A stretch of 38,808 nt of DNA. It comes from a virus. Shown in pieces: positions 2,419-37,877 of this stretch. A program made the position numbers and the translations under genes. Numbering within the stretch: the stretch's first letter is position 1; the number at the start of each line of letters is the position of its first letter. The notes under the pieces were generated by a model. It made no database searches. It was not told the DNA's origin and saw only the letters and a program-made list of their open reading frames with translations. The DNA lies in IMG/VR virus record IMGVR_UViG_3300023179_000251, positions 1 through 38,808 of that record; one strand, given 5' to 3'.

Positions 2419-2556
2419 TTACCAATTAAACATATCCACCACACTAAATCCTAGTACTAACCAATACTGATGTAACGGTAATACCGAAACACAACTTTGG
2501 CATAGCGACTGTAATAGATACAATGACGATAATGATATGTTTATTAATGTTTTCAT
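2419..2556 (-). CDS. Small hydrophobic protein, 45 residues
   Basis: ATG at 2556 opens 45 codons beginning MKTLINISLSSLYLLQSL and ending in a second hydrophobic stretch (WLVLGFSVVDMFNW). Both halves could be membrane or secretion segments, and there are two Cys close together (CQSC). Three signals support a real gene: a Bacteroidota-type promoter upstream (2636-2666), a CTATTTAATAT motif (2567-2575) 11 bases before the start, and a strong terminator 20 bases after the stop. No family is recognised; a small membrane-active phage peptide is possible but unproven. Confidence 0.5.
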   Translation of the reverse strand: MKTLINISLSSLYLLQSLCQSCVSVLPLHQYWLVLGFSVVDMFNW

Positions 2557-2566
2557 TTTTTTTTAT

Positions 2567-2575
2567 ATTAAATAG
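2567..2575 (-). promoter_or_regulatory. CTATTTA-type motif before the 45-residue ORF
   Basis: On the coding strand the sequence reads ACTATTTAATATAAA 11 bases before ATG 2556. It is a variant (TTAAT instead of TTATA) of the motif found before other genes here. Confidence 0.4.
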
Positions 2576-2635
2576 TCTGTTTTTTTGTTTTTGTCATAGA
2601 AACATAAAAATATTTTTTACATTCCATTTATAATA

Positions 2636-2666
2636 CAAAGATAACATTTTTTTTCTAATTGTCAAA
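2636..2666 (-). promoter_or_regulatory. Bacteroidota-type promoter
   Basis: TTTG (2663-2666) followed after 19 bases by TATCTTTG (2636-2643) on the minus strand, matching the -33 TTG / -7 TAnnTTTG promoter of Bacteroidota. It is nearly identical to the sites at 6245 and 7869. Confidence 0.8.
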
Positions 2667-2683
2667 TCTTTTTTTATTCTTAA

Positions 2684-3349
2684 TTAAACTTTTTTAGTTT
2701 TAACAATATCATCAATAATTCCGTAAGCCAATGCTTCTTCAGAACTTAACCATAAATCACGTGACGCATCTTCTTTTACTTGGTTAGCATCTTTACCACA
2801 ATACCCACCTAATAAATTAAATAACAAATCATTTATTTTTTCCCATTCAATCATAGTTATTCTAGCATCCTGAATATTACCTCTAACACCACCAGAACTT
2901 TGATGTAACATTGTTTGTGAAAATCTTAATGACATTCTCTTACCTTTTGTACCAGCACCTAATAATACCGAACCCATTGAAGCTGCCATTCCTGTATTAA
3001 TTGTTCTAATGTCATTCGGAATATAATCCATTACATCCACAATTGATAATCCAGCCTTAACCGAACCACCGGGTGTGTCTAGGTGCATTGTGATTTCTTT
3101 CTTTGAATCTGAATTTGACAAGTAAATTAATTGAGCTTGAATAACTTGTGACATACCTTCATCAACAGGTCCTGCAACCCAAATAATCCTATCCTGCATC
3201 AATCTATCAAAAACTGACATAAGATTTGCTCTTGTTGGTCTTTCCTCCAAAATGTGAGGTGTCATTGACGATTGGAAATCGTGAAGATACATAGATGAAA
3301 TACCCATGTGTGATGTTGCGAATTTGTTAAAATCTGATTTATTATTCAT
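2684..3349 (-). CDS. clpP: ATP-dependent Clp protease proteolytic subunit (ClpP-like, phage)
   Basis: 221 residues, close to the usual ClpP length. The serine protease triad is visible: Ser124 in GMAASMGSVLL, His149 in QTMLHQSSGG and Asp198 in SRDLWLSSEEALAYGIID. The substrate-strand segment 'LDTPGGSVKAG' (90-100) is also typical. ClpP degrades unfolded proteins fed by a Clp ATPase; no ClpX/ClpA is in this window, so it would rely on a host or distant phage ATPase, or act in virion maturation like other phage ClpP-type proteases. The first 30 residues are extended. The start at 3349 lies 23 bases after a Bacteroidota promoter, the clearest promoter-gene pair here. Isolated, not in a structural operon. 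Confidence 0.92.
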   Translation of the reverse strand: MNNKSDFNKFATSHMGISSMYLHDFQSSMTPHILEERPTRANLMSVFDRLMQDRIIWVAGPVDEGMSQVIQAQLIYLSNSDSKKEITMHLDTPGGSVKAGLSIVDVMDYIPNDIRTINTGMAASMGSVLLGAGTKGKRMSLRFSQTMLHQSSGGVRGNIQDARITMIEWEKINDLLFNLLGGYCGKDANQVKEDASRDLWLSSEEALAYGIIDDIVKTKKV

Positions 3350-3371
3350 ATATTTTATTTTTATAATAATA

Positions 3372-3403
3372 CAAAAGTAATGAATAATTTTTATAAAACC
3401 AAA
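3372..3403 (-). promoter_or_regulatory. Bacteroidota-type promoter of clpP
   Basis: TTTG (3400-3403), 20-base spacer and TACTTTTG (3372-3379) on the minus strand, ending 23 bases before the clpP ATG. Confidence 0.75.
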
Positions 3404-3414
3404 TATTTATTTGT

Positions 3415-3633
3415 ATGAAAAATTTAATTAGAAGAATTCTTAAAGAAACGGTGGATAAAATGGAACAATTTAAAAAGGCATATACTCAACCACATATTAC
3501 ATTTGATAATACGCCATCAACCAAAAAAAGGATAGAATCAAACATATCTAAAAAATATGGATTTACAAACAAAAAAGAATATTATATTATAACAAACGAA
3601 AAAGGTCAATTAGTGGTTAAATTAAAGGCATAA
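3415..3633 (+). CDS. Small basic phage protein with shared N-terminal module
   Basis: 72 residues, starts MKNLIRRILKE, which resembles the short N-terminal module shared by other proteins in this window and ends in an LxE-type site (ILKE). The rest is lysine-rich, with 'KKYGFTNKKEYYII' and a C-terminal beta-like segment. No family recognised. It is one of few plus-strand genes and converges with the VWA gene at 3644; a bidirectional terminator sits between them. The ATG is preceded at 6 bases by a weak version of the CTATTTAT motif (ATATTTATTTG). Confidence 0.7.
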   Translation: MKNLIRRILKETVDKMEQFKKAYTQPHITFDNTPSTKKRIESNISKKYGFTNKKEYYIITNEKGQLVVKLKA

Positions 3634-3662
3634 AAAAAGTAGGTTATTCACCTACTTTTATC
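3632..3662. terminator. Bidirectional terminator between convergent genes
   Basis: Stem AAAAGTAGGT/ACCTACTTTT with loop TATTC, flanked by A and T runs on the respective strands. It overlaps the last codons of the VWA gene on the minus strand. Confidence 0.8.
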
Positions 3663-5482
3663 ATACTATAACGAATGTCGTTATAAATAACCCACAATTC
3701 ATCTTCAGGGTTTATTGAATCTTTGGATATTCCATCTAAGATTTGTGATAAACAACTTTCGTTAAAACCACCTATAAATAAACCATTTGGAGTATATTTT
3801 AACTCTTCCTTGATAAAATGAGTCATTGTGGTAATACCCCAAAAAATTAACTTTGGTCTCCATCCAATTGAATTGGCTAATGTAACCGCTTCTTTTGGTG
3901 ATTTACCTGAATTGTTTTCATTATCTGTTAAATATAATAATGTTTCAGGTAATTCTTCCATAGTACATCTACCTATTTTCACAAGATTTACAAAATATTC
4001 TACCGAAGCAAACATATTTGTTGACGCTATTTGTTTTGGATCAGTTTCCATAAGTAATCTGTAATTTTCAGTAAAAGTCTTTGTATGACTTACATACTTA
4101 TCTACATTGTTAAACATAGATACATAGGTATCACCATACTCAGACCTACCAAAAACTTTAAAGTCGTTTGAGAACCAACCATAAGTATTTCTAAATCTTG
4201 GGTTTGGATTCATCGTAGTAAATGCAATTGCCATTGCGTATGCTACTTGTCTGTTACTAATTCTTACACCATTATGGTCAAAACCAGAATCCATAGAACC
4301 CGAACCGTCAATAATTGGAAATACTGAATGTTTAATGTTCATTCTCTCAATCATTGATTGATAGTTGTTGTTTACTTGTTGAGCATTTAAACCCTTACCA
4401 AGCATTTCAGCCAACAAATCAATTGTTTGATCCCCTGTTGTTTTAACTTTGAAATCTTTCATCAAAGTCGCTTTTTCAGCAGGTGTGGTAGCTCTTCTAA
4501 TTTTTTCAGCTAAGTTAGATTGATCATCTTCCCAAGCTTTATACCATTTAGTAAGCTGACCCCATTTAGGATTACCCAATGATTTTACAACTCTTTTTCT
4601 TTGTCCCGCAGTCAAAGAATCCAAGAAACCATTAAATTGATCTTCTGTCATAGACATTACTGAACCACTTGACATTTTTTGTTCAGCAGTATTCTGCTTA
4701 CCCTTAAATGATTTGTATTCAGCAATTGTCCATCCCATATAATCACAAAAATCCTTAATCCACTTGTTTAAAAAACTTTGTCTATTTAAAGACTCAGATT
4801 TCTTTTCTCTTGGGTATTCAGCAACATCACCACTCTTAACCTTGATTTTATCATCAGTTACAAGATTTCCGTTGATTTTAACCCAAGATTTACCTTTCGG
4901 TAATGTCCAAGTGAATTCGGTTCTTCCTTTTGTACTAACTAAAGTTTTTTTAGTTGTTCTGTTCTTACCTGTAGCATATTTAGGTAAGTGTCTTGCGATT
5001 AAGTTCAAGTTTACACCTGATTCAATCTCAGACTTTAAGAAAGGAAACAAATATTGGTTGTCAATAAATAGTTTTTCAACACCCATAACATTACCCAAAT
5101 ATCTGTTTGTGTTTACTTGGTAATACATTAAAGTTTCGTATGAAGTAAATTCAACTACTAACTTTAAATTTTTATGCAAGAACTCTGGGGTGTTCTTTTG
5201 CATCCATCTTACACAAGATCTAAATATCTTTCTTTCTTGAGCCCCACCCACTTCTGAGTTGATTTCAAAATCTTTAAAGATATTATGTTTTCTTGAAATA
5301 TCTCCAATATGAAACATAATTCTATATAACATATCTTCAGTACCATTATCAATGGTTTCAGCGTAAGCTTTATCTAAAGCTAAATGAATTTGTTCATCTG
5401 AAGCACCTTTAGCGGTTCTCAAAAATTGTAACGTATCTAATGTGTTAGATAACTCCATTTTTTCTTTTACTAATTCTGTCAT
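3644..5482 (-). CDS. TROVE/DUF2828-like protein with C-terminal von Willebrand A domain
   Basis: 612 residues. The C-terminal part (about 385-605) is a VWA domain with the MIDAS motif D392-G-S-G-S-M and a later STN motif that would complete metal binding. The N-terminal 370 residues are mostly helical, with a 'NLIARHLPKY' segment recalling the 'AKWLP' segment of DUF2828/TROVE proteins. TROVE-VWA proteins (Ro60, bacterial Rsr) are RNA-binding rings that hold Y RNAs and misfolded RNAs; phage DUF2828 proteins are little studied. The gene lies 31 bases downstream of an abnormal tRNA-like RNA in the same direction, with no terminator between, and within a tRNA region, which fits an RNA-related role. 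The TROVE assignment is moderate, the VWA domain confident. Confidence 0.8.
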   Translation of the reverse strand: MTELVKEKMELSNTLDTLQFLRTAKGASDEQIHLALDKAYAETIDNGTEDMLYRIMFHIGDISRKHNIFKDFEINSEVGGAQERKIFRSCVRWMQKNTPEFLHKNLKLVVEFTSYETLMYYQVNTNRYLGNVMGVEKLFIDNQYLFPFLKSEIESGVNLNLIARHLPKYATGKNRTTKKTLVSTKGRTEFTWTLPKGKSWVKINGNLVTDDKIKVKSGDVAEYPREKKSESLNRQSFLNKWIKDFCDYMGWTIAEYKSFKGKQNTAEQKMSSGSVMSMTEDQFNGFLDSLTAGQRKRVVKSLGNPKWGQLTKWYKAWEDDQSNLAEKIRRATTPAEKATLMKDFKVKTTGDQTIDLLAEMLGKGLNAQQVNNNYQSMIERMNIKHSVFPIIDGSGSMDSGFDHNGVRISNRQVAYAMAIAFTTMNPNPRFRNTYGWFSNDFKVFGRSEYGDTYVSMFNNVDKYVSHTKTFTENYRLLMETDPKQIASTNMFASVEYFVNLVKIGRCTMEELPETLLYLTDNENNSGKSPKEAVTLANSIGWRPKLIFWGITTMTHFIKEELKYTPNGLFIGGFNESCLSQILDGISKDSINPEDELWVIYNDIRYSMIKVGE

Positions 5483-33836: not shown

Positions 33837-36755
33837 ATGATAGAATTAAATGAAATTTCAAAAGTTAAAGCTCTTGATATATTAAAAAGTTATGTTGGTG
33901 ATAACCCTTATATCTTGGAATTAAAAAGAACAAGAGAAAAGAAATCATTCTTACCTATAACTGAAAATCAAGCAAATTATATTATAAATAATCATACTTT
34001 TCAAGTAAAAGAAGTAAATAAGTTTTTGGATTTAACTAATTTCTTTAGAAACTCTTTAATGAGACAATTTAATATATCTATTCAAATAGAAAAGATTCTA
34101 ATAGAAAAGATTGTTGGGGAACAAGAAAAGGTATATCATGCTCAAGTTAAATTACTTAAAAATAGGGATTCTGAACTTATTTGGCTACCAAAAGCACAAT
34201 TAAATGAAGATTTATTTAGAGTTATACCTGAAGTAAATGTAGAATGGGGTAAATACTCTTCAAGGCTTCCTATGAAACATCAAGAAGAAGCAATAATTAA
34301 ATTACTTCAACACGATAAGTTTTTATTATTAGATACACCAGGTTTAGGAAAAACAGCATCTTCAATAATAGCGGCATTAGAATCGGGTGTTAAAAAAATA
34401 TTGGTTATATGTCCAGCATCACTTAAATTAAATTGGAAGAAAGAAATATCTATATATGATGATTCTGAAAATGTATCAATTATTCAAAGAGAATGGATAC
34501 CTAATAAATGGACAATCATTAATTATGATATATTGGATAAATTTAATACAATTGAAAAACCTAAAAAAGGTAAAAAACCTAAATTTAAGTTTCAAGAATA
34601 TGATGAAGTTGCTATAAATAATCATATAATAGATGAAAAATTTGATTTAATCATTTGTGATGAATGTTTTCAATATAATACTTTAGTTGACACTAATATT
34701 GGTAAATTACCAATAGGTAAAATAGTTGAAAAATGTATGGACGTTGAAATTTTATCATTAAATTTAAATACAAATCAACTTGAATATAAAAAAATTGATA
34801 GATGGATAAAAAAAGAAAATGACATTATTTTAAGAATAAAATATCAAAACGAATTATTTATAGAATGTACACCAAATCATAAAGTGTACGTTAAAAATAA
34901 AGGTTATATTAAAGCTGAAGATATTAAAGTATATGATGAATTGTATATGTTGCAACAAACCACTATCTCAGAGACAGATATGGAAGAAAGGGATGTTTTG
35001 CTCAAGGGATTGTGCCCAAATAGGAAAAGAAAAAAAGGGTTGGGAAAAAGGGAAATTAAAAAAACCTCTTTTAATAATAAATTGTCAAGAATGTCAAAAA
35101 GAAGTGTCAATCAAAAATTATTTAAAAGGGGTGCAAAGATTTTGTGGAAAATCTTGTTCAGCGAAATGGAGGATGAAACAAACGGAAATAAGGGAGAAGG
35201 TGTATTCGGAAGAAGTATTAAAAAAAATAAAAGTAAGTCAAAAATTAAATTATTTAAAAAATCCGGAAAGAGCGAAAAAAAGTTCAGAACGAATGAAAAA
35301 AGAAAATCCGATGTTTATACAGAAAAATATAGACAAAATGAAAAATTCTTTAAAGGGAAGGACTTTCCTATCGAGAGGAGGGAATGGGAAACTGACAAAC
35401 CAACAAGTAAAAATAAAAAGTTATTTATCAGAAGATTGGGTGATGGAGTATCCTATAAAAACAAAAGATGTGATGAACGATTTCAAATCGTTACCAACAT
35501 CATACAAAGTAGATATTGGAAATCCAAAATTAAAAATAGCTATAGAAATCGATGGGAATTCTCACAAAACAAAAAAATGGAAATTTTTGGACAGAAGAAA
35601 AACAGAAGTATTAAATTCGTTAGGGTGGAAAGTATTGAGATTTTGGAATCAGGAAGTAACGAATCAAATAGAAAACTGTTTAACGGTGATAAATCAGTAT
35701 ATAATATAGAAGTTCGTGATAATCATAATTATTTCGCCGATAACATACTAGTTAGTAATTGTCATTATTTAAAATCATTAAGTTCAAACAGAACAAAACA
35801 CGTTAAAAAAATAGTTAAACCAATTAAAAAAAGATGGTTTCTAACAGGAACACCTATCACAAATAAGCCTGTGGATTTGTTTTCATTATTATCTATGGTA
35901 GAACACCCACTTTCAACTAATTATAATTCATTCTTATATAGTTATTGTAACGCTAAAACTATGATAATTAAAGGTAGAAAAATTATTAAAGCTGATGGTG
36001 CTTCAAATCTTGAAGAATTAAATAGAAGGATTAAACCTGTTTCAATTAGAAGAAGAAAAGAAGATGTGTTAGATTTACCCGATAAAATTATTTCACCTGT
36101 TTATATTGAATTAGATGATGATGAAAAAATAGATTATGATTCATCTGTTGAAAGATATATTCAAATGAGAGAGGAACAGGGTAAAAATGTGTCATATGCT
36201 AAAAAACTTGTTGAATTATCCGTTTTAAGAAGATGGGTGGCTGAAAAGAAATTAAAACATACTAAAGAACTTATCAATAATTCTTTAGAGGGTGATAAAA
36301 AAGTAATTGTATTTACTGATTATACTTCAGTTGTTAATACTTTAAAAGAAGAATATAAGGATATTTGTGTTGTTATTAATGGTGAAACAAGTCAAAAAGA
36401 TAGACAAAAGGCTGTTGAGGATTTTCAAAATAACCCAAATGTTAGATTGTTTATTGGTAATACCGTAGCCGCTGGAGTTGGATTAACTTTAACTGCTGCT
36501 GAAGTTGTTATTGTAAATGATTTAAATTATACCCCAGCAAATATTGACCAATCATTAGATAGAGCGTATAGGATAGGACAAACTAAAGATGTAATATGTT
36601 ATTTCCCATTATTTGACGATACTGTTGATACAATAGTATATGAAGTTTTAGATAAAAAAAGATCCATTATTAATATGGCTATTGATGGTGTAATTGATAA
36701 CAAGGGTGTGGTTGAAGAAATCATTGAAAAGATTGACGCTAAATATAATAAATAA
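33837..36755 (+). CDS. SNF2-family DNA helicase/translocase precursor containing an intein
   Basis: 972 residues, of which 365 are intein (277-641), leaving a 607-residue mature enzyme. Helicase motifs in order: Walker A 'TPGLGKT' (167-173); motif Ia 'ILVICPASLKLNW'; Walker B D275-E276 | C642-H643, a DECH box split by the intein; motif III 'FLTGTPI' (668-674); motif VI 'DQSLDRAYRIGQ' (904-915). This is the SNF2/HARP type. It would remodel DNA-protein complexes or forks in phage replication. The mature enzyme needs intein splicing, since the insertion is in the catalytic box. The last 71 codons are duplicated downstream (see 37662-37877). First gene of the plus-strand block. Confidence 0.92.
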   Translation: MIELNEISKVKALDILKSYVGDNPYILELKRTREKKSFLPITENQANYIINNHTFQVKEVNKFLDLTNFFRNSLMRQFNISIQIEKILIEKIVGEQEKVYHAQVKLLKNRDSELIWLPKAQLNEDLFRVIPEVNVEWGKYSSRLPMKHQEEAIIKLLQHDKFLLLDTPGLGKTASSIIAALESGVKKILVICPASLKLNWKKEISIYDDSENVSIIQREWIPNKWTIINYDILDKFNTIEKPKKGKKPKFKFQEYDEVAINNHIIDEKFDLIICDECFQYNTLVDTNIGKLPIGKIVEKCMDVEILSLNLNTNQLEYKKIDRWIKKENDIILRIKYQNELFIECTPNHKVYVKNKGYIKAEDIKVYDELYMLQQTTISETDMEERDVLLKGLCPNRKRKKGLGKREIKKTSFNNKLSRMSKRSVNQKLFKRGAKILWKILFSEMEDETNGNKGEGVFGRSIKKNKSKSKIKLFKKSGKSEKKFRTNEKRKSDVYTEKYRQNEKFFKGKDFPIERREWETDKPTSKNKKLFIRRLGDGVSYKNKRCDERFQIVTNIIQSRYWKSKIKNSYRNRWEFSQNKKMEIFGQKKNRSIKFVRVESIEILESGSNESNRKLFNGDKSVYNIEVRDNHNYFADNILVSNCHYLKSLSSNRTKHVKKIVKPIKKRWFLTGTPITNKPVDLFSLLSMVEHPLSTNYNSFLYSYCNAKTMIIKGRKIIKADGASNLEELNRRIKPVSIRRRKEDVLDLPDKIISPVYIELDDDEKIDYDSSVERYIQMREEQGKNVSYAKKLVELSVLRRWVAEKKLKHTKELINNSLEGDKKVIVFTDYTSVVNTLKEEYKDICVVINGETSQKDRQKAVEDFQNNPNVRLFIGNTVAAGVGLTLTAAEVVIVNDLNYTPANIDQSLDRAYRIGQTKDVICYFPLFDDTVDTIVYEVLDKKRSIINMAIDGVIDNKGVVEEIIEKIDAKYNK
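34665..35759 (+). mobile_element. Intein in the DECH box of the helicase
   Basis: Starts with Cys (CFQYNTLVDTNIGKLPIG, block A); block B is 'FIECTPNHKVYV' with TxxH; ends with 'VYNIEVRDNHNYFADN' (block F) and 'ILVSN' followed by Cys+1 (block G). All splicing residues are present: Cys1, block-B His, terminal Asn and Cys+1. Removing it restores ICDE-CHYLK. The N-terminal 90 and C-terminal about 22 residues are normal; the 250 residues between are Lys/Arg/Asn-rich with no domain, because that DNA encodes an endonuclease in another frame. No LAGLIDADG or HNH motif exists in the intein frame. Confidence 0.92.
34933..35709 (+). CDS. Homing endonuclease encoded in the +1 frame inside the intein
   Basis: 258 residues. 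Two matching zinc fingers C4-x2-C7...C23-x3-C27 and C51-x2-C54...C71-x3-C75, a NUMOD3-like DNA-binding region (about 90-150, with 'SERMKKENPM'), and a Vsr/DUF559-like EDxHD nuclease with E205, D207, H211, D220 ('IAIEIDGNSH', 'FLDRRK', 'WKVLRFWNQEV'). The ATG pair at 34933/34936 lies over the codons for the intein's 'VYDEL', the end of its N-terminal splicing domain, and the stop lies over the first codons of block F. So the gene fills exactly the place where inteins normally hold an in-frame endonuclease. It would cut intein-less helicase alleles. Expression needs internal initiation or a frameshift. Confidence 0.88.
   Translation: MMNCICCNKPLSQRQIWKKGMFCSRDCAQIGKEKKGWEKGKLKKPLLIINCQECQKEVSIKNYLKGVQRFCGKSCSAKWRMKQTEIREKVYSEEVLKKIKVSQKLNYLKNPERAKKSSERMKKENPMFIQKNIDKMKNSLKGRTFLSRGGNGKLTNQQVKIKSYLSEDWVMEYPIKTKDVMNDFKSLPTSYKVDIGNPKLKIAIEIDGNSHKTKKWKFLDRRKTEVLNSLGWKVLRFWNQEVTNQIENCLTVINQYII
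36540..36755 (+). repeat. Helicase 3' end, copy 1 of a diverged direct repeat
   Basis: The last 71 codons plus stop of the helicase. By my count 60 of 71 residues and 176 of 216 bases are shared with copy 2 at 37662-37877; 21 of the 60 identical residues use different codons. The 906 bases between the copies hold the RHH and endonuclease genes. Confidence 0.93.
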
Positions 36756-36807: not shown

Positions 36808-36981
36808 ATGAGAAATAAACTAGAAGAAGAAAAAAAGAAAGTTAGGATATCACTAACTATTGACCCTGAAATTAGTAAGATTATTGATGAAAATTGTAGA
36901 AATAAATCAAGGTATATTGAAAACCTTATATACCAAGATTTAATTAAAAATAAATTGATTAAAGATAGTAAATTGTTATGA
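36808..36981 (+). CDS. Ribbon-helix-helix (Arc/CopG-type) DNA-binding protein
   Basis: 57 residues from ATG 36808 (an upstream ATG at 36694 lies inside the helicase gene and is rejected). 'KKVRISLTIDPEISKIIDEN' is a beta strand followed by a helix and 'KSRYIENLIYQDLIKNK' a second helix, the standard RHH dimer fold that inserts a beta ribbon in the major groove. Its stop overlaps the start of the endonuclease gene (ATGA), so the pair are one unit; it may repress the endonuclease or the helicase. RHH genes next to phage homing endonucleases are an unusual pairing. It has its own CTATTTATA motif. Confidence 0.8.
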   Translation: MRNKLEEEKKKVRISLTIDPEISKIIDENCRNKSRYIENLIYQDLIKNKLIKDSKLL

Positions 36982-37877
36982 ATAGATTAACGACTGAAGA
37001 TTTTATAGAAAAGGCAAAATCTATTCATGACGATAAATATGATTATTCCAAATCAGTATTTTTAACAACTAGAAGTAAAATTAAAATAACTTGTAAGTAT
37101 CACGGTGATTTTAACCAAAAGGCGAGTAATCACTTAAACGGTAATGGGTGTAAAAAATGTCATTTTGATAATAGAAAACAAAACTTTATTGAAAACGCAA
37201 AATCTGTTCATGGTGATAAATATGATTATAGTTTAGTTAAATATGAACATAATGAAAGTAAAGTTAAAATAATTTGTCCTTCTCATGGTGTATTCGAACA
37301 AACCGCTTATCATCATATAAATAGAAAACAAGGGTGTAAAATCTGTAAATCATCGATAGGTGAAAACATAATAAAAAAATATTTAGATGATAAAAACATA
37401 AAATATATTAAAGAGTGTAGATTTGATGAATGTAAAAATATCCAACCACTACCTTTCGATTTTTATTTACCTGATTATAATATCTGTATAGAATACGATG
37501 GTATCCAACATTATAAACCTCTAATATTCTTTGGTGGTGATAAAGGATTTAACAAATTAAAAATAAATGATACTATTAAAGATAACTATTGTAAAACTAA
37601 TAATATAAAACTAATTAGAATTAAATATACTGATACAAATATAGGAAATACCCTACTTCAAAATGTAGATCAATCATTAGATAGAGCTTATAGAATTGGT
37701 CAAACTAAAGATGTTATTTGTTATTTCCCACTATTTGACGATACAATTGATACTATTGTGTATGAAGTATTAGATAAGAAAAGAGATATTATCAATATGG
37801 CTATTGATGGTGTGATTGATAATAAAGGTGTAATTGAAGAAGTAATTAATAGATTAGATGAGAAGTTTAAAAAATAA
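36978..37877 (+). CDS. Vsr-like homing endonuclease fused to a copy of the helicase C-terminus
   Basis: 299 residues. Two repeats of about 55 residues (8-65 and 69-124; 'AKSIHDDKYDYSK', 'CKYHGDFNQKASNHLNGNGC' and 'AKSVHGDKYDYSL', 'CPSHGVFEQTAYHHI') are the Cys/His module (DUF723-like) of phage endonucleases. The nuclease follows: 'PFDFYLPDYNICIEYDGIQH' with E172, D174, H178, an EDxHD/Vsr-type core. Residues 229-299 are a copy of the last 71 residues of the helicase, in frame. The fused tail lacks most helicase motifs and cannot be an enzyme. The family is unlike the nested endonuclease apart from the nuclease fold. Confidence 0.85.
   Translation: MNRLTTEDFIEKAKSIHDDKYDYSKSVFLTTRSKIKITCKYHGDFNQKASNHLNGNGCKKCHFDNRKQNFIENAKSVHGDKYDYSLVKYEHNESKVKIICPSHGVFEQTAYHHINRKQGCKICKSSIGENIIKKYLDDKNIKYIKECRFDECKNIQPLPFDFYLPDYNICIEYDGIQHYKPLIFFGGDKGFNKLKINDTIKDNYCKTNNIKLIRIKYTDTNIGNTLLQNVDQSLDRAYRIGQTKDVICYFPLFDDTIDTIVYEVLDKKRDIINMAIDGVIDNKGVIEEVINRLDEKFKK
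37662..37877 (+). repeat. Helicase 3' end, copy 2, fused to the endonuclease
   Basis: Codons for residues 229-299 of the endonuclease ORF, aligning without gaps to 36540-36755 up to and including the stop. The alignment begins at N(I/V)DQSLDR and no similarity continues upstream, so this is where the element boundary lies. Confidence 0.93.

Follow-up and report, generated by a model that had tools for sequence, protein, structure and literature searches.

A phage intein with a nuclease gene overprinted in the +1 frame of its linker: a candidate class of mobile inteins

Introduction

As commonly taught, mobile inteins either combine a splicing and a homing domain in one polypeptide or are encoded by split genes. 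The latter arrangement was described in fractured phage genes by Dassa et al. in 2009, where a Vsr/EDxHD-type endonuclease gene reportedly lies between the N- and C-terminal splicing halves of a split intein. An out-of-frame HNH endonuclease, the ShiLan domain/Pacc40 insertion, is known from actinophage DNA methylase genes (Arsenault, Gosselin and Gogarten 2025, PMC11855218). Here we characterize an intein in a helicase gene of the viral record IMGVR_UViG_3300023179_000251 of IMG/VR, which was analyzed over its whole length of 38808 bases (herein the window). The intein is read in one frame from end to end, and a complete nuclease gene lies in the +1 frame inside it.

By sequence analysis we establish the anatomy of this element, its conservation, the selection acting on each frame, both forms of its decay and its presence/absence alleles. 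With a probability of roughly 0.88, it represents a distinct and widespread class of mobile inteins whose homing endonuclease, rather than forming a domain of the intein, has its own gene, overprinting the linker in the +1 frame and translated from an internal start; splicing, internal initiation, cleavage and homing are predicted. Two proteins from one DNA would be a third layout beside the two that are taught and, if true, would account for an endonuclease that resides in an intein but takes no part in its fold.

Results

An intein and a nuclease gene share the same DNA

The helicase open reading frame (ORF) of the window is uninterrupted over 972 codons, and a second ORF lies in its +1 frame, wholly inside the intein (Table 1). 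Coordinates and frames are those given by an original prediction made from the sequence alone; the third forward frame across the region is full of stops. The intein begins with Cys1 (34665-34667), ends with Asn365 (35757-35759) and is followed by Cys+1 at 35760. Pfam Intein_splicing (PF14890) matches with 41.1 bits (cut-off 35.8), and TIGR01445 and TIGR01443 also score above their cut-offs. The nucleophile at position 1, the block B TxxH (T69, H72), the C-terminal Asn (N365) and the +1 nucleophile are all present and are invariant among 32-36 relatives. The best Protein Data Bank sequence match of the intein is NrdJ-1.

In the AlphaFold2 model of the intein frame, the HINT parts (residues 1-98 and 314-366) are confidently predicted and the linker is unstructured, with a predicted local distance difference test (pLDDT) score of ~40. 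The HINT parts of the model match the Mtu RecA mini-intein (2in0; Z 21.5, rmsd [root-mean-square deviation] 1.5 Å over 137 residues) and NrdJ-1 (Z 20.4). The predicted unsplit intein with all splicing parts in one frame is thus supported by the family models, the invariant catalytic residues and a HINT fold that is complete in the model. By its sequence and modeled fold, the element qualifies as an intein and is expected to work like a mobile one, with splicing predicted.

The nuclease gene starts on the end of the N-terminal splicing part, and its stop codon, TAG, falls within block F, so that both of its ends lie where the original prediction had put them. Its C-terminal domain (residues 150-258) matches the catalytic domain of I-Bth0305I (3r3p; Z 11.1, rmsd 2.4 Å over 88 residues), NGO0050 (Z 12.2) and Vsr (1cw0; Z 9.8), and the model is therefore I-Bth0305I-like; the fold search barely probed the finger and middle parts. 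The catalytic residues E205, D207, H211 and D220 are invariant or nearly so in relatives. The EDxHD domain that had been predicted is thus confirmed by DUF559 and these conserved residues, and the two zinc fingers (CxxC...CxxxC) were recognized by inspection. For the part described as NUMOD3-like, no Pfam match was found at E<=1, and residues 73-140 are modeled as helices.

The +1 layout is conserved among relatives

Searching with the helicase returned a ~98% identical contig (IMGVR_UViG_3300032224_001211) with the same layout, two loci (L004 and L005) that share the layout although their helicases are only 39-41% identical to that of the window, and intein-less helicases 84-95% identical to it. 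A tblastn search of 50,697 phage records with the nuclease gave 40 records, with all matches in helicase-type genes of Vibrio, Pseudomonas and Corynebacterium phages, and the set was identical with each of three queries. The nuclease is +1 relative to the annotated coding sequence in 8 of the 8 phage loci inspected out of these 40 records, the others including near-copies. Annotation has missed it: only the helicase is annotated in 8/8 cultured-phage loci inspected.

Frame-blind profile searches brought in another 80 loci from viruses and seven from bacterial metagenome-assembled genomes (Akkermansia, Spirochaetaceae, Alphaproteobacteria, Thermodesulfobacteriota, Ruminococcus and others). These seven were found with the Vibrio-type profile; the window-type nuclease had no match in a scan of genome contigs, and a plasmid search gave only partial DUF559 matches. 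One locus found with the intein profile (L045) was set aside as a different intein without this nuclease.

The resulting 124 loci were grouped into 81 clusters and classified with hidden Markov models for the N-part, the C-part and the nuclease. The intein frame is free of stops in 73 clusters and has a single stop in one (L132); three clusters are fractured (L081, L104 and L111), three have a free-standing nuclease (L095, L135 and L140) and one is partial (L066). In every cluster that has both intein parts, the nuclease is +1 relative to them, so the overlapping frame proposed from the window is indeed kept in its relatives. This holds at GC contents of 0.26-0.69 and across nucleases as little as 30% identical. 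The exteins include superfamily 2 (SF2) helicases and DnaX-type clamp loaders, with flanks that are mostly DE/C(H). A sequencing or assembly error was rejected, as the same layout occurs in the second contig and in isolate phage genomes. Judged from this distribution, the layout is no sequencing accident but a selfish gene arrangement that is old and has been overlooked.

Stops are avoided in the intein frame, and the ends of the nuclease gene are dual-coding

Each intein codon consists of the third base of one nuclease codon and the first two bases of the next. Because of this register, a stop arises in the intein frame only when a nuclease codon ending in T precedes AA, AG or GA. Across the 73 stop-free clusters, T stands before such a stop-completing codon in 0 of 3452 cases, compared with 3032 of 8179 (37%) in other contexts. 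The free-standing relatives have T in 78/175 cases (~45%) before stop-completing codons and 142/285 elsewhere, and the three fractured relatives in 40/116 (~34%) and 78/192, respectively; these sums were taken from per-locus counts and exclude L066, which is partial, and L132 with its single stop. Ordinary genes of the window, used as a control, have T in 1747 of 2900. Since the avoidance is absent from free-standing and fractured relatives, the constraint exists only where the nuclease is overprinted.

With the nuclease protein of the window held fixed and its own synonymous codons permuted, a mean of 11.8 intein-frame stops is expected (30.6 under the codon usage of the phage); none is observed, and none of 5000 permutation trials gave zero stops. 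The same permutation across clusters predicts a median of 10.9 stops per gene, against 0 in the 73. An open frame by chance was therefore ruled out.

Ratios of nonsynonymous to synonymous substitution rates (dN/dS) were estimated by the Nei-Gojobori method for related pairs. In the middle of the overlap, dN/dS in the nuclease frame is mostly 0.1-0.3, that is, under purifying selection, while intein-frame dN is at or above dS. Here selection acts on the nuclease protein, and the intein frame is merely kept free of stops. Wobble identity at codons for the same amino acid, in pairs 60-90% identical, is 0.94-0.99 in the first ~15 nuclease codons and 0.84-0.97 in the last ~30, compared with 0.52-0.79 between. 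In the intein frame, the last ~30 codons specify the strand FVRVESIEILE and the beginning of block F; on this evidence they, and in relatives the first ~15, are truly dual-coding. The central claim of the original prediction, an unsplit intein with an endonuclease in its +1 frame and both readings maintained, is thereby borne out by the 73 clusters, the stop-specific avoidance, the purifying selection and the conserved wobbles at the ends. Its stronger wording, that both frames are under selection, applies in full only at those ends.

Empty alleles and nuclease start sites

Intein-less alleles have Ala or Ser in place of the Cys+1 of occupied alleles. The closest of them (L006, with Ser at +1) is 92-100% identical in the helicase and 87-90% identical within 100 nucleotides on either side of the insertion site, a lowering expected under co-conversion of the flanks. 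Nuclease starts cluster just 3' of the N-terminal splicing part. Outside the clade of the window, a Shine-Dalgarno (SD)-like site precedes the nuclease start in 35 of 59 clusters, compared with 69 of 415 background windows (17%; p=1.8e-11).

Decay forms and split relatives

Two loci (L034 and L035) carry a 552-nucleotide in-frame deletion between CAAAGG repeats, which has removed the nuclease core and left a mini-intein with both HINT parts. In a DnaX-type clamp loader gene (L132, 1648-3789) the linker has one stop, at 2608-2610, and the nuclease is intact; this stop may be a nascent fracture or an assembly error. The three fully fractured loci have a nuclease that overlaps the N half by ~100 nucleotides and the C half by ~110, in the same +1 relation, and in a tree of 81 rows with an arbitrary root they are a single clade (support 100/99) nested within a larger group of overprinted forms (95/97). 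The natural deletion, the one-stop case and the nested fractured clade together indicate how the overprinted layout decays. In each of the fractured loci the split-intein helicase (ResIII/Helicase_C parts, C flank HNCGAFPKP) adjoins a D5-like primase.

Among the free-standing relatives, the nuclease of L135 lies beside a helicase with an empty motif II, and in L095 (region 2468-4593) it is directly upstream of a helicase split into two ORFs exactly at motif II (IIIDE/...HHAAAPTY). The broken helicase of L095 is possibly a mis-repaired homing cut.

The classic gp41-1-type fractured genes were considered as the same element and rejected: their halves, 234-1600 nucleotides apart, are not frame-locked (relative frames 0/1/2 in 19/14/11 loci), and the DNA between them is of another kind, with no match to this nuclease. 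In six of these loci (L144, L146-L148, L187 and L189) the halves are just 234 nucleotides apart, with no space for a nuclease gene; these seem to be fractured genes that lost their nuclease. The original prediction had suggested that such an intein could be the missing step between an in-frame endonuclease and a fractured gene. That step is supported for the clade of L081, L104 and L111, with the single stop of L132 beside it, but not for the classic gp41-1 genes, and none of the 81 clusters holds an in-frame nuclease or an in-frame ancestor.

Table 1. Features of the intein-bearing helicase gene and the overprinted nuclease gene in the window
Feature	Position	Strand	Evidence and remarks
SNF2/SF2-type helicase ORF, 972-residue precursor	33837-36755	+	SNF2-rel_dom E=2.2e-20; Helicase_C E=6.8e-18; phrog_62 DNA helicase E=6e-106
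N-extein	33837-34664	+	Part of the helicase ORF
Intein, 365 residues, in motif II at DE/CH (DE, intein, Cys+1)	34665-35759	+	Pfam/NCBIfam intein models above cut-off; open frame throughout
N-terminal splicing (HINT) part, intein residues 1-98	34665-34958	+	AlphaFold2 pLDDT mostly >90
Short 5' overlap, nuclease start on the end of the N-terminal splicing part	34933-34958	+	Intein reads DELYML
Overprinted nuclease gene, 258 residues, +1 frame	34933-35709	+	DUF559 E=1.9e-14; AlphaFold model pLDDT 90.8
Nuclease layout: zinc fingers Cys4-Cys27 and Cys51-Cys75, helical middle, EDxHD/DUF559 domain residues 150-258			
Intein-frame linker (residues 99-313), disordered by prediction; the nuclease gene as read in the intein frame	34959-35603	+	pLDDT ~40; zero stops; intein-frame dN >= dS in relatives
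C-terminal splicing part, intein residues 314-365	35604-35759	+	Strand 316-328 and blocks F/G confidently modeled; shares DNA with the nuclease gene as far as 35709
Dual-coded 3' segment	35623-35709	+	Nuclease GWKVLRFWNQEV..., intein FVRVESIEILE...VYNIE; wobble identity 0.84-0.97, compared with 0.52-0.79 in the middle
C-extein	35760-36755	+	Part of the helicase ORF

Other mobile elements near or within these helicase genes

A free-standing homing-type endonuclease ORF (phrog_559, E=2.7e-63) lies just downstream of the helicase, at 36978-37877 of the window. It ends in a second copy of the helicase C terminus (71 residues, 85% identical), and the helicase ends in its own diverged copy; the ORF resembles a nuclease insertion that supplied an extra 3' end to restore its target gene. 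The same type of arrangement occurs in L017 at 4627 and 5728, and L003 has one copy only in the stretch covered. The helicase of L025/L026 (343-4308) appears to hold two inteins, an in-frame one in the P-loop (GLGK...HN/TTST) and an overprinted one at DE/CH.

Discussion

The proposed course of events is as follows. The helicase ORF would be read straight through, the ~215-residue linker remaining disordered and passive, and the two HINT halves would fold together and excise the intein to leave an active helicase. From the same mRNA the nuclease would be translated from its own start at 34933, ending inside block F. Its zinc fingers and helical part would bind the motif II site of an intein-less helicase gene, the EDxHD domain would cut there, and repair from the occupied copy would install the intein together with some flanking DNA. 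The two frames would be locked together by the 3' end of the nuclease gene, which doubles as the coding sequence of a HINT β-strand. Decay could then take either of two routes, in-frame deletion of the nuclease to a mini-intein or stops in the linker leading to a fractured gene with a split intein.

Several points weigh against this reading. The penultimate residue of block G is Ser364 in the clade of the window and not the usual His, which most other clades have; a penultimate His is usual in inteins without defining them, and it is missing from some active ones. Upstream of 34933 there is no SD-like site, and only 1 of the 17 clusters in that clade has one, so another initiation signal would be needed there. 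The pairs behind the wobble identities share ancestry and their counts are not independent; it is the contrast along the gene that constitutes the evidence. Finally, the evidence on where the nuclease cuts and how specific it is for its target comes solely from the insertion site and the empty alleles.

Programmed frameshifting occurs in phages, and a +1 shift from the helicase/intein N-part could make the nuclease as an N-extein-HINT-nuclease fusion: the nuclease frame is open upstream of its start (281 codons from stop to stop in the window), and a shift site could sit in the N-terminal splicing part. We consider this unlikely, as the SD-like sites in SD-using clades are properly spaced and well above background, the starts gather just after the N-terminal splicing part, and free-standing and fractured relatives have start codons of their own. 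EDxHD/Vsr-like nucleases have other roles, which raises the question of whether the enzyme is a general-purpose one (anti-competitor or repair) sheltered in the intein rather than a homing enzyme for this site. It is quite unlikely to be so: in L135 and L095, free-standing relatives lie beside a helicase in which this motif II is empty or broken, the presence/absence alleles have locally lowered flank identity, and the modeled fold matches a homing enzyme, I-Bth0305I.

The intein might also have ceased to splice and be tolerated as a helicase loop, only the nuclease mattering, as proposed for ShiLan; insertions of that type without splicing domains do exist (PMC11855218), and the penultimate Ser in the clade of the window could be read in the same way. 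An unspliced insert of 365 residues in motif II should inactivate the helicase, however, and the invariant Cys1, TxxH, Asn and Cys+1, the fully modeled HINT fold, the conserved wobbles of the C-terminal strand and a deletion form that retains exactly the HINT parts make loss of splicing very unlikely. That the open intein frame is accidental or trivial, reflecting either an out-of-frame insertion too recent to have been broken or a side effect of unusual codon usage in the nuclease gene, is scarcely credible. GC-rich members have fewer expected stops (minimum ~2.9 per gene) and single cases alone are weak, but the complete lack of stops in 73 clusters, the avoidance of T only before stop-completing codons and conservation across nucleases of such low identity all contradict it.

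Rather than any of these, the overprinted homing endonuclease within a splicing intein remains the reading that we favor. With somewhat less assurance, we think it probable that these "overprinted inteins" are an ancient and globally distributed class, undescribed as such, in phage ATPases (SF2 helicases and DnaX-type clamp loaders, at Walker B/motif II), with two frames locked by dual-coded ends and an internal nuclease start, and that they decay to mini-inteins and to at least one fractured clade. If true, the layout gives a concrete route from an unsplit intein to a fractured gene, with deletion, one-stop and fractured forms all seen. The overlapping genes known from phages would also gain a set that is large, old and quantitatively clean, with natural controls in its free-standing and fractured relatives. 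Annotation pipelines miss such nucleases, and overprinted inteins would supply new EDxHD nucleases as well as split-ready inteins.

No intein described as having an out-of-frame nuclease came up in full-text literature searches; a 2025 preprint by Gosselin on actinophage inteins, with "non-canonical architecture" in its title (10.1101/2025.01.02.630785), lies outside their coverage. PMC11855218 cites it for overlapping frames in actinophages, and it might hold a partial prior description. The SPbeta intein was suspected as an early out-of-frame precedent, as PMC11855218 cites "Non-canonical inteins" beside overlapping frames, and was rejected because it has an in-frame LAGLIDADG endonuclease.

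The nearest described case is ShiLan, which the original prediction did not name. In both elements a homing-type nuclease is read from a different frame of a phage gene that is itself uninterrupted, the host frame contains no stop, and the distribution is disjunct (PMC11855218). ShiLan has no splicing domains, being neither intein nor intron, its host frame is unstructured, and its HNH nuclease lies in the third frame with a start 18 bp into the insert (PMC11855218); the window element has an EDxHD nuclease and a complete HINT domain, and is partly dual-coded. I-Bth0305I shares the fold of the catalytic domain and the modular, elongated layout of the window nuclease, but is associated with a group I intron and is not overprinted (PMC3943268). 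Fractured genes are two genes with stops between them, whereas the window helicase is one ORF throughout. Canonical bifunctional inteins, like the window element, have a HINT domain with the endonuclease between blocks B and F, but theirs is in the intein frame (e.g., LAGLIDADG in SPbeta BnrdE) and not a separate +1-frame gene. The window element therefore falls outside the definitions of a canonical bifunctional intein, as its nuclease is out of frame, of a fractured gene, as it is unsplit, and of a ShiLan-type insertion, as it has a splicing domain.

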